From positions 1 through 56,851 of the forward strand of contig JAGXOA010000132.1 of the NCBI GenBank assembly GCA_019894715.1: DNA of 56,851 bases, in the 5' to 3' direction. This DNA is from Promethearchaeota archaeon (GTDB lineage Archaea > Asgardarchaeota > Lokiarchaeia > Sigyniarchaeales > SOKP01). The position numbers and the translations under genes were made by a program. Positions within the stretch are counted from its first letter, which is position 1; each line of letters begins with the position of its first letter. Under the pieces are notes generated by a model that was not told the origin of the DNA, searched no databases, and saw nothing but the letters and a program-made list of their open reading frames with translations. Shown here in pieces: positions 28,564 to 49,694 of the stretch.

Positions 28564-28746
28564 AAGAATAATCTTGTTTGCTAAATCTATTTTTTTTATT
28601 TTTTTATAAGATATGAGTTTTTTTTAACCTGTAAAATATCCAATCTATATAATTCTATGAGAAGATCTCTCATTAAATAAAATTAATTTAAACTATACCA
28701 ATTTCAATTTTTCAAAATTCAAAAACTATAGGTTTACTCTTAACCT

Positions 28747-45621: not shown

Positions 45622-46611
45622 ATGTTAACTAAAGAAGAACTTCAAAACACTCTAAAGGATAACTGTATTAATCTTCGCTTCCATGCTAGAGGTGGACAAG
45701 GAGGTGTGACTGCCTCTAACCTCTGTGTTGAGGCATTCCATGGATTTGGTGTTTGTCAACCAAAATTTGGTGCGGAGAGGATGGGTAGTCCAACAGAGAG
45801 TTATGTAAGACTAAGTCTTAATGATGATTTAGTAAGAAATAATGAGCAGGTGTATGCCCCTCATGTTGTTTCCGTATTAGATCCATCTCTTCTTGGTGAA
45901 ATTGATGTTGCTGCAGGACTTGCCCCAGGAGGATGGTTAATAGTAAATACCACTATAGATCAAGTATCTTTACAAGAAGTAATTGGTAGAAATGATATTA
46001 ACATAGCCACAATAGATGCTTTAAATATAGCTATGGAAATATTAGGAAGAAATATTACCAATACAATTATCTTAGGCGCAATATTGCGAGTAATGCCAAT
46101 GTTTACCGTTGATGCTCTAAAAGATGCTGTCATGGCGAGATTTAAAGGATCATTAGCAGGAAAAAATATCGAAGCAATCAAGAGAGCATATGATGATACT
46201 TGCATCTATGAAACTCTAGATGCTCCAAAACTTGATTTTTCAAAAGATACAAAAATTCCTTGGCAACAAATATCTCTTGGTTTACCAGGTTATAAAGAAT
46301 TGGATAAAGCAGGAGTATGGTATTGTGATGAAACTGTAATTGAAATGGGGAGTAAATTAGTCAATACAGGTTCTTGGGGAGAATGGGATATGATCTGGGA
46401 TAAAGAAACATGTACAGATTGTGCTCAATGTTGGTTTATCTGTCCTGATTTTGCTATTCTAAGAGAGAAAAATGATGATGGTCTATGGCACATGGTTGGT
46501 ATTGATCAAGGTCATTGTAAATCATGCCAAAATTGTCTAGAAACATGTCCTGTAAAAGCAATTACAAAACAATTAAAACAAGGACCGGCCTCATGTGCCG
46601 CTCCACAATAG
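45622..46611 (+). CDS. porGD: 2-Oxoacid:ferredoxin oxidoreductase, fused gamma-delta subunit
   Basis: A 329-residue fusion. Residues about 15-195 form the gamma subunit (LRFHARGGQGGVTASNLCVE, FGAERMGSPTESYVRLS, then FTVDALKDAVMARF). Residues about 245-325 form the delta ferredoxin with two [4Fe-4S] motifs: CTDCAQCWFICPD and CKSCQNCLETCPV, plus the usual TGSWGEWDMIWD lead-in. The enzyme oxidises pyruvate (or a related 2-oxoacid) to acyl-CoA and CO2 while reducing ferredoxin, or runs in reverse for carbon fixation. It is the first gene of the por operon, followed by the alpha gene after 15 bp. Gamma-delta fusion is known in other lineages. Confidence 0.92.
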   Translation: MLTKEELQNTLKDNCINLRFHARGGQGGVTASNLCVEAFHGFGVCQPKFGAERMGSPTESYVRLSLNDDLVRNNEQVYAPHVVSVLDPSLLGEIDVAAGLAPGGWLIVNTTIDQVSLQEVIGRNDINIATIDALNIAMEILGRNITNTIILGAILRVMPMFTVDALKDAVMARFKGSLAGKNIEAIKRAYDDTCIYETLDAPKLDFSKDTKIPWQQISLGLPGYKELDKAGVWYCDETVIEMGSKLVNTGSWGEWDMIWDKETCTDCAQCWFICPDFAILREKNDDGLWHMVGIDQGHCKSCQNCLETCPVKAITKQLKQGPASCAAPQ

Positions 46612-46626
46612 ATGAGGTGAAAAAAA

Positions 46627-47856
46627 TTGTCAGTAGAACCAATGAAAATATTTTTTAAGGAAATAAAAGAACCAATAGAAACAGCTATGATTGGAAATTA
46701 TGCTGTCGCAGGAGGTATTACTCAAACAGATCCCGATGTTATATGTGCATTTCCAATTACACCACAAACTCAATCAGTTGAGGGATTATCTGATGTTGTT
46801 AATCAGGGAAGATTGATAGCTGCTTTTGTTAATGTTGAATCTGAGCTTGCTGCTATAAGTTATGCTACAGCTGCATGTGCTTCAGGAGCAAGAACTTTTA
46901 CAGCTACAGCTAGTCAAGGTTATTTATTAATGACAGAAGGGCTTCCTATGCCAGTTGGATGGAGATTACCTTTAACCATGTTGATTAGTGCTCGAGCTTT
47001 TAATGCTCCTAATCTAAGCATTTGGAATCAATGGGAATATACCCAAGTAAATGCAGAACTTGGTTGGAATATTTTTGTTTCTGAAAATGTTCAAGAAACA
47101 TATGATGCTGCAATTCTTTCTACAATGATTGCTGAAGATACATTATTTCCAACTATATTTGTTCATGATGGATTTATCATTTCTCATTCTGTACAAAAAT
47201 TAACTTTAATTCCAGATGAAACTGTTTTACGTATGACTCCTAAAAAACCACGACATATAATTGATACTGCTAAACCAGGTACTTGGGGAGGTATAGTCAC
47301 CCCAAATTATTTTATGGAAGGACGAGCTAATCTTGAAAATGCAAAAAAACCGGTTTTAGGCCAAATGCAAGCTGCTTTTGATCGATTCAAATCAGAAACA
47401 GGTAGACAATATAATTTAATAGAAACATACAATTTAGATAATTCATCGAAGACTGCTTTTTGCACAATGGGTTCGATGAGTGGAAACATTATTAGTTGGA
47501 TGACCAAAAATAAAGATGTTGGTTTAATAAAATTAAGAGCTTATAGACCATTTCCAGTTGAAGAATTAAGGAAAATTGTTGAAGAACATAATATAGAAAA
47601 ATTAATTCTTTTAGAGAAAAGTGATGCTCTTAATGGTTTATTACCTCCTTTCGCAATGTCAATTGCCAGTGCTCTTTATCCACTTGGGACTATATTTAGA
47701 AGTTTTATTGTTGGTTTAGGTGGTAGAGATGTAACTCGTGAGGAATTTACTGTTACCAAAAAGAAAATGGAATTGGTAAATGATATGAAAGGTCCACTTT
47801 ATTCCTATCTTGGAGTAAGAGAGACCAAACAAAAAATAGAAGGAGTTGATCAATAA
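46627..47856 (+). CDS. porA: 2-Oxoacid:ferredoxin oxidoreductase, alpha subunit
   Basis: A 409-residue alpha subunit. Landmarks are GNYAVAGGITQTDPDVICAF and PITPQTQSVEGLSD near the N-terminus, FVNVESELAAISYATAACAS, ARTFTATASQGYLLMTEGLP, and the CoA-domain region LGQMQAAFDRFKSETGRQYN. The C-terminal half has LIKLRAYRPFPVEELRKIVE and LLEKSDALNG. PITPQT and the VESE-A pattern are pyruvate-enzyme-like, though the substrate is not certain. Translation starts at TTG, with GAGGTGA eight bases upstream. The stop codon TAA is immediately followed by the ATG of the beta gene. Confidence 0.92.
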   Translation: MSVEPMKIFFKEIKEPIETAMIGNYAVAGGITQTDPDVICAFPITPQTQSVEGLSDVVNQGRLIAAFVNVESELAAISYATAACASGARTFTATASQGYLLMTEGLPMPVGWRLPLTMLISARAFNAPNLSIWNQWEYTQVNAELGWNIFVSENVQETYDAAILSTMIAEDTLFPTIFVHDGFIISHSVQKLTLIPDETVLRMTPKKPRHIIDTAKPGTWGGIVTPNYFMEGRANLENAKKPVLGQMQAAFDRFKSETGRQYNLIETYNLDNSSKTAFCTMGSMSGNIISWMTKNKDVGLIKLRAYRPFPVEELRKIVEEHNIEKLILLEKSDALNGLLPPFAMSIASALYPLGTIFRSFIVGLGGRDVTREEFTVTKKKMELVNDMKGPLYSYLGVRETKQKIEGVDQ

Positions 47857-48973
47857 ATGTCAAAACCAGAAAGAAATGTTATAGATTTTGAGGAAATTCT
47901 CAAAAGAGAAGGAAAAAGTAATGTTCTGTTCTTTAATTATGACAATGAGGCGTTCATGAATACTGGAAATTATAGAAAGTCTTCCTTTCTAAACTAGAAT
48001 TCAAGAATCAGGTTCAACACCTCCATTTGCCAGTACAACTACAGGACCAGCAGGAGAAAAGATTCCAGGAAAGATAGGTGTAAAACAAGACCTAGTCACA
48101 CCATTTGCTTTCTTTGGGACTAAAAAGCTTTTTCTAGCGACTCTCAATCCTTCATACCCTATGGATTTCATGGGTAAAGTTGCAGATGCTTTAAAGTCAG
48201 ATGGATCAGCCTTTCTTCAAGCCTATTCAGATTGTATGAGAGGATGGAGACACGGAGCCTCAGCAGCAGTAAGAATCTCTAAATTAGCAACTGATTGTGG
48301 ATATTGGCCATTATATACGATCCGAGTAGAAGACGGAATCCCCAGATTTTCATACTATAGAGGATTAGATATTGACAAAGAAAAATTTATTGAATATCTT
48401 AAATCAATGGGAAAATTCAGACACCTTTTTAAACCCGAATTCAGAGAGAAAGAGATTGATGAGATCATATATATGACAGAACAGAGAAATAAGAAACTAA
48501 GAAAGCTTATTGAAATATTCCCAGCAGATAAACCAATTGATTTCTATAAAGTTAATAGAAAGAAATTAGAACCTCAAAACCACTTACAACCAGGACATGG
48601 ATTATGTCCGGGATGTGGAGCAGGTATGGTTTTAAATCAATTAGCTACAGCCGCTCAAGCAATCGCAGGAAAAAATATTGTTTATGTAAATAACACAAGT
48701 TGTTCTGAAGTATCAACCTCTAAAGATAATGTTACTTCATGGAATGTCCCTTGGGTACATCATCTTTTTGAATCAGGATCAACCGTAGCAGATGCAATTT
48801 CTACTACTAAGAAAATCCTGAAAACTAAGGGATTAACCAATCAAGAGGTACCTTATGTTATTCATATTGCTGGAGATGGTTCCACTTATGATATTGGATT
48901 CCAATTCCTTAAAGCAGCTTTAATTAGAACAAGCAGTTTCCTTGAAATGAATGAATATTTAAATGTAAAATGA
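47857..48973 (+). CDS. porB: Circularly permuted 2-oxoacid:ferredoxin oxidoreductase beta subunit with a 31-nt insert
   Basis: After removal of 47969-47999 the frame encodes 361 residues. The first part starts MSKPERNVIDF, then VLFFNYDNEAFMNTG, IQESGSTPPFASTTTG, and runs through DCMRGWRHGAS and GKFRHLFKPEF: the normal C-terminal half of the beta subunit. The second part, from NHLQPGHGLCPGCGAG (CPGCG at about 240-244), contains TSCSEVSTS, SWNVPWVHHLFE and AGDGSTYDIGFQFLKAALIR, the normal N-terminal half, then a short tail. The thiamine-diphosphate motif is thus split between the two ends. The linker between halves is open (EIFPADKPIDFYKVNRKKLE). The cysteines expected to bind the [4Fe-4S] cluster are all kept. 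Unspliced, the frame ends at TAG 47995. Confidence 0.82.
47969..47999 (+). other. Candidate BHB mRNA intron (31 nt) in porB
   Basis: Exon CTGG (47963-47966) pairs with intron CTAG (47994-47997) with one G-U; bulges AA|A (47967-47969) and AA|T (47998-48000) hold the cuts; the inner helix TT(A)TAGAAAG/CTTTCTAAA has one unpaired A and loop TCTTC. Excision joins ACT GGA ATT CAA GAA, giving MNTG-IQ, the family motif, and restores the frame. Confidence 0.72.
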
Positions 48974-49059
48974 ATTTTTAATTTTTATTTTTACTTTCTT
49001 TTTTTTAATTATATAATTCAAACATTATTTTTTAAAATAACAATAATTTATGATGTCAC

Positions 49060-49461
49060 ATGTGGATATTTGAGGAATTAGAAATTAAAACATTGGAAAG
49101 AGAAATTTTAATTGATATAACAGAAAAAATTCAGGATATTCTAAAAAAATCTAGTATTTCTGAAGGAATCTGTAGAATTTTTATCCCACATACAACAGCG
49201 GGAATAACTATTAGTGAAAATGCTGATCCTACTGTTAAGATAGATCTTATAAAATACCTAAAACAATTAATACCAAAAAGTAGTGAATTTTTGCATTTAG
49301 AAGGAAATTCAGATGCCCACATTAAGAGTAGTCTAACAGGATTATCTTTAGAGGCGATAATACATAATAATAAGTTAATGTCAGGGGCATGGCAAGGTAT
49401 ATTTTTTGCAGAATATGATGGTCCAAGAAATAGAAAAGTCTATATTCAAATTCAAGGTTAA
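49060..49461 (+). CDS. YjbQ family protein (UPF0047)
   Basis: A 133-residue YjbQ-family protein. Landmarks are CRIFIPHTTAGITISENAD, the His/Glu segment HLEGNSDAHIKSSLTG, and GAWQGIFFAEYDGPRNRKVY near the C-terminus. The conserved His, Glu and Asp residues line an active-site pocket. Members have a weak thiamine-phosphate synthase activity and may work on phosphoryl or ubiquitous side reactions; the true role is unsettled. It follows porB by 86 bp on the same strand. Together with ThiC and ThiN it is a third thiamine-linked gene in the window, at some distance. Confidence 0.88.
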   Translation: MWIFEELEIKTLEREILIDITEKIQDILKKSSISEGICRIFIPHTTAGITISENADPTVKIDLIKYLKQLIPKSSEFLHLEGNSDAHIKSSLTGLSLEAIIHNNKLMSGAWQGIFFAEYDGPRNRKVYIQIQG

Positions 49462-49694
49462 TAATTGGTATTATTTTTTCAATTTTCTGATTTTATATTT
49501 AAAATAAAGTTCAGTACTACGTACATTGTACATTCGTGCTATTTACATTATATATTAATATGTTAATTGAATTGCTTTTATTTTAAAAAAATTATATTAT
49601 TGATGACAGTGTTTTAATTTATTTCCAATTTAATAACAAAGAATTAAAATAAGTAATCTAAATTAAATATAATAAGAAAAAATAAAGCCATTAT

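Follow-up and report, generated by a model that had tools for sequence, protein, structure and literature searches.

A 31-nt insert interrupts porB, the gene for the beta subunit of a 2-oxoacid:ferredoxin oxidoreductase, in a lokiarchaeal genome. Comparative sequence evidence indicates that the insert is very probably a bulge-helix-bulge (BHB, tRNA-type) mini-intron, presumably spliced by EndA and RtcB and belonging to a probably mobile family of ~30-nt introns in Lokiarchaeia. The window, the whole 56,851-nucleotide stretch analysed, is contig C127 of the metagenome-assembled genome G000 (3.36 Mb). In it porB (47857-48973, + strand) lies 3' of a porG-porD fusion encoding the gamma/delta subunits (45622..46611, +) and of porA for the alpha subunit (46627..47856, +), two ORFs named from reading the sequence that supply the operon context. 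Matches to the same gene in our genome collection were nearly all Lokiarchaeota or Lokiarchaeia by name.

The insert in porB and its predicted splice register

Unspliced, the porB frame ends at a TAG at 47995, inside the insert (ATTATAGAAAGTCTTCCTTTCTAAACTAGAA, 47969..47999, +). Exon 1 (47857..47968, +) has 112 nt, or 37 codons plus 1 nt, and aligned to codons 1-37 of relatives without the intron, placing the insert at codon 37 of a porB that is circularly permuted. Exon 2 (48000..48973, +) encodes the rest of the C-terminal half and then the N-terminal half, where the CPGCG and GDG motifs are found. Deleting 47969-47999 yields a single 361-aa frame joined at MNTG/IQESGSTP (a slash marks the junction here and below), as a sequence-only reading of the window had reported.

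The same reading had drawn a BHB around the insert, and its central helix and bulges were found. The exon strand CTGG (47963..47966, +) pairs with the intron strand CTAG (47994..47997, +), flanked by the 3-nt bulges AA/A (47967..47969, +) and AA/T (47998..48000, +). The inner hairpin h' (47970..47993, +) exists as well, but the seven pairs given to it were too few: it comprises TT(a)TAGAAAG, a TCTTC loop and CTTTCTA-AA, forming 9 bp with one bulged A. Under the canonical rule, a 3-nt bulge, a 4-nt central helix and a 3-nt bulge are cut after the second nucleotide of each bulge, which predicts splice sites at 47968/47969 and 47999/48000.

The gene is uninterrupted in about 55 lokiarchaeal genomes among the related loci, all of them reading DNEAFMNTGIQES. 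Three others carry diverged inserts: 30 nt at the identical site in G023 (isolate BC1) and G028 (BC3), and 31 nt located 6 nt downstream in G017 (YT6_002). With ~55 copies lacking the insert and three more carrying one, neither chance nor faulty assembly explains it. The four inserts have their position in common, or nearly so (6 nt off), and little sequence. In genus g3, every member for which that part of porB is present has an insert; the window belongs to genus g1. The only other genome of that genus, G001 (99% complete), has no permuted porB, just a 39%-identical paralog. One further locus was rejected as an intron case. In isolate E44_bin85 (SOKP01000182, L091 4001-4120), a second porA-porB copy is truncated at MNT, adjoining the intron site, and is followed by a hairpin and a T-run; an intact copy (L076) is in the same bin.

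In all four insert-bearing genes, the canonical cut on both bulges gives the invariant MNTGIQESG exactly. The residue in the canonical register is I in G023 and G028 and E in G017; in these three, V, L, or K/G results from any other register that restores the frame. Register tables were computed for G000, G023 and G017, and the G028 register was taken by hand from the sequence. Of 20,000 shuffled versions of the window insert, 9 formed a 4-bp helix plus an inner helix of 8 bp or more in the register that restores the ORF. Among eight inserts found by homology, seven gave the structure in the right register in 5-39 of 20,000 shuffles; in the eighth, from the G028 CoA-transferase (CoA-T), a bulge defeated the simple helix counter. 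The minimum-energy fold of the G017 porB precursor is a complete BHB including the outer exon-exon helix. That outer helix is weaker in the window copy and the central helix of some family copies has 3 pairs, not 4, so the BHB motif is partly relaxed, the window copy being one such relaxed form. Two ab initio scans combining BHB geometry with ORF joining returned mirror decoys about as often as real geometries (345 vs 362 and 452 vs 482). As such a scan cannot separate the two, structure alone is no proof of an intron.

A family of related, probable mini-introns

A protein-versus-DNA homology search across G017 (about 1.2 Mb), G037 (0.8 Mb) and G000 (0.24 Mb) returned the window porB insert and, in a G017 family III CoA-transferase, an insert of 30 nt that contains a stop. 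Roughly 200 conserved genes of G017 covered in this way gave only one intron, which supports no claim that such introns are abundant. The CoA-transferase site, KVE/PPPFGE, is also split in G023, G028 and G008; the genes of G003, G015 and G037 have no insert there. The G008 gene has a second insert at DCSQ/FISG. About 0.7 kb upstream of this intron-bearing gene lies a truncated, intronless CoA-transferase 5' fragment that ends in DCSQFISG (L263, about 765-830).

The porB and CoA-transferase inserts align gap-free as 37-mers. Five of these 37-mers, picked without use of structure, were examined for covariation. Double-sided changes occur in 11 of 13 pairs and 92.3% of cells pair; none of 500 shuffles reached the observed pairing, and slid versions paired at 29-55%. 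Covariance models were built on 37-mers only, since an alignment including 38-mers misaligned. The first model, R1 (five 37-mers), recovered both held-out introns, the window porB intron at 29.0 bits and that of the G028 CoA-transferase at 30.9. R1 also detected an intron in the window's own genome, in rnhB for RNase HII (G000:C100), at GIDEAG/RGPVLGPM. Once spliced, the protein matches PF01351 over 1-199 of 199 residues. Further R1 introns split the Walker A motif GEPG/TGKT of a MoxR-type ATPase in G017 and a LURP-like protein in G037. The later models R2 and R3 added PFK introns at GG/DDT in four genomes (G029, G016, G008, G002), as well as introns in an E2 ubiquitin-conjugating enzyme (G060), a proteasome alpha subunit (G009), POR-gamma (G007), a LURP-like protein (G021) and the CoA-transferases of G034 and G031. 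They also found a 30-nt BHB insert in the SAH hydrolase of G115 (L332) at TKWE/FDNLWGTGQS. Because this genome is from another Asgard family, outside Lokiarchaeia, the intron family, or something similar to it, may extend beyond that class.

The porB insert is thus not the isolated case it had been taken for: one covariance model joins homologous introns at different sites in more than 10 genes. Several introns can occur per gene: MoxR has three or more, each 30-31 nt long, and PFK, E2 and CoA-transferase have two each. The 24 catalogued introns measure 30 nt (16), 31 nt (6) or 29 nt (2) and have central helices of 3-4 pairs. Exon 1 mostly ends in TGGA/R, most have an NNNTC loop, and AACYAGAA is the common 3' end. 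The family consensus is approximately ATTTAAAANNC-NNNTC-GNNTTTTAAACYAGAA, 3' of exon YTGGA/R. The introns are almost only in family f1; model searches scored part of each genome's candidates, making this distribution provisional and the intron counts lower bounds.

Other model matches were rejected as introns. The reading frame is open through L291, L324 and L328; L286/L294 are, on inspection, seemingly antisense to a coding gene; and excision brought no ORF gain at L313/L317, L314, L319, L320 and L329 or at 28647, 34369 and 52807 in the window. L318 and L321 were counted neither as introns nor as rejects.

Alternatives to splicing and the putative splicing enzymes

Ribosomes could instead hop over the hairpin-containing 30 nt with no splicing, as in the translational bypassing of T4 gene 60 and the yeast mitochondrial byp elements. 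The inserts resemble byp elements in size and in having a hairpin, and every one of them introduces either a stop or a frameshift. However, take-off and landing codons differ (GGA and AGA in three porB copies, CAA and GAA in G017), in the G023 CoA-transferase the triplet ahead of landing is a stop codon, and a codon-wise hop would give V, L or K, not the invariant I or E. The helix that covaries is one between exon and intron, and an untranslated RNA, tRNA-Sec, carries the same element. We found tRNA-Sec introns in G023 with R1 and in G034 and G009 with later models. Exact excision gives a standard Sec tRNA whose acceptor stem is a perfect 9 bp and whose D stem is 7 bp, and this perfect fold appears only once the intron is exactly removed. 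Given this evidence, bypassing is highly improbable. The unspliced tRNA-Sec gene is misread by ARAGORN and Rfam; at L301, L327 and L333, where the mini-intron of the porB-intron family sits in the D arm, ARAGORN misplaces or misses the gene.

Insertion of a short repeat or hairpin element at the DNA level, with splicing incidental, would account for one observation. Genera g2 and g8 share an identical 30-nt PFK intron although no more than 57-59% of their third codon positions agree, and its identity despite such diverged exons makes movement or transfer likely. Movement and splicing are compatible with each other, however, and the stop-containing inserts lie in catalytic motifs of essential genes under purifying selection, which only removal from the RNA explains. 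We consider incidental splicing of a DNA element very unlikely. The mini-introns are recurrent, and the family is probably mobile.

A dead gene bearing a lesion, or an error of assembly or sequencing, might be suspected as all the genomes are metagenome assemblies and the G031 CoA-transferase copy has an extra 1-nt frameshift. Such an origin is strongly contradicted, and we give it hardly any weight. Insert sites are identical in independent genomes, and the inserts have diverged with compensatory changes. The split genes retain a dN/dS of about 0.02-0.03, the value for porB between G017, G023 and G028, whose synonymous sites are near saturation, so the split porB is functional. A group I or II self-splicing intron needs a conserved catalytic core of hundreds of nt and is excluded for an insert of 31 nt (an Rfam scan of 46600-49500 found no match up to E=1), as is a cbf5-type intron by homologous position, the catalytic Asp codon of cbf5, since the gene here is porB.

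For a BHB intron, the genome also encodes candidate processing enzymes. Two paralogs of the splicing endonuclease EndA were found in all 10 genomes tested. The two PF01974 genes of G000 are G000:C39 and G000:C177. Paralog 1 has the catalytic Tyr-His-Lys triad and 3p1z (A. pernix) as its best PDB match, and paralog 2 has lost the catalytic His. G000 also has a gene for the ligase RtcB (G000:C238); searches of G023 (72% complete) and G001 gave no RtcB. The pair of EndA paralogs corresponds to the (alpha-beta)2 type, which accepts relaxed BHBs (PMC6379350), and hetero-oligomeric EndA has been linked to cbf5 pre-mRNA splicing (PMC2738675).

The BHB-intron reading first made from the window letters now has behind it a helix between two bulges, restoration of the frame by the canonical cut, diverged copies with compensatory changes, purifying selection on split genes, endonuclease and ligase genes in the genome and a tRNA-Sec interrupted likewise. 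In the proposed mechanism, the porB pre-mRNA would fold into the 4-bp central helix (exon CTGG with intron CTAG), the two 3-nt bulges and the 9-bp intron hairpin. A heteromeric EndA would cut after the second nucleotide of each bulge and RtcB would join the exons, so that full-length beta subunit would be translated from spliced mRNA only. Across Lokiarchaeia, the homologous ~30-nt elements would have spread to both mRNA genes and tRNA-Sec, probably by intron transposition.

Known archaeal introns and the permutation of porB

A BHB intron in the cbf5 pre-mRNA is known from Desulfurococcales and Sulfolobales, and as of 2009 cbf5 was the sole archaeal gene with confirmed pre-mRNA splicing (PMC2738675). 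The cbf5 intron is likewise a BHB in an mRNA with its boundary between the second and third bulge nucleotides, is gained and lost by lineage and needs a hetero-oligomeric EndA (PMC2738675). Unlike it, the lokiarchaeal introns are in other genes and another phylum, are 29-31 nt long, conserved in sequence and almost invariant in their stem-loop, and occur in many unrelated genes, several per gene, and also in a tRNA gene. Near-identical BHB introns at many sites, described as transposed tRNA introns of Thermoproteales (Fujishima 2010, via PMC4090602), offer another parallel; their near-identity suggests transposition guided by BHB pairing. Those introns are in tRNA genes, whereas the Asgard sites are nearly all protein-coding. 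The archaeal tRNA introns cut by (alpha-beta)2 EndA (PMC6379350, PMC12397907) share the relaxed BHB, a two-subunit endonuclease and RtcB. In contrast, the lokiarchaeal substrates are mainly mRNAs and the tRNA-Sec intron is in the D arm. No report of Asgard mRNA introns was found in the open-access literature searched.

It is likely that ~30-nt BHB introns are actively spreading in Lokiarchaeia and that a set of core enzymes there is expressed only through tRNA-type mRNA splicing of an origin independent of the spliceosome. If so, enzymes of glycolysis, the proteasome, the ubiquitin system and pyruvate oxidation would depend on such splicing, and relatives of eukaryotes would have an archaeal mRNA-intron system independent of the spliceosome. 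An archaeal lineage related to eukaryotes could then tolerate introns in essential genes with no spliceosome, and the family would offer a natural setting in which introns are gained, lost and moved via tRNA-splicing enzymes. Since split genes read as broken or missing, a multi-gene intron family alters gene prediction for Asgard genomes.

The porB gene is itself circularly permuted, with its C-terminal half ahead of its N-terminal half (47857-48973; L032-L089). In a profile comparison with Methanosarcina PorB (9bt4_C), profile positions 228-348 correspond to chain residues 5-116 and profile positions 22-196 to chain residues 118-285. The breakpoint is inside the TPP-binding motif, and the permuted order divides the thiamine-diphosphate motif (GDG ... 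DNEAYMNTG) between both gene ends. This order is common to members of the family, order and class, while the other Asgard classes have the normal order. The permutation was seen by profile search; Foldseek, which is order-dependent, gave no clean signal, and an AlphaFold2 model of the permuted protein was of moderate quality (pLDDT 70, pTM 0.80). We found no paper on a permuted porB in the open-access literature. In several genomes, the last ~50 codons of the permuted gene (GDGSTYDIGFQFLKAA...) are present a second time as a short copy 0.7-2 kb downstream (L003 565-717; L034 6123-6275; L072 2939-3091; L025/L057 2082-2231; L007; L038). These copies are possibly a relic of the tandem duplication that led to the permutation.
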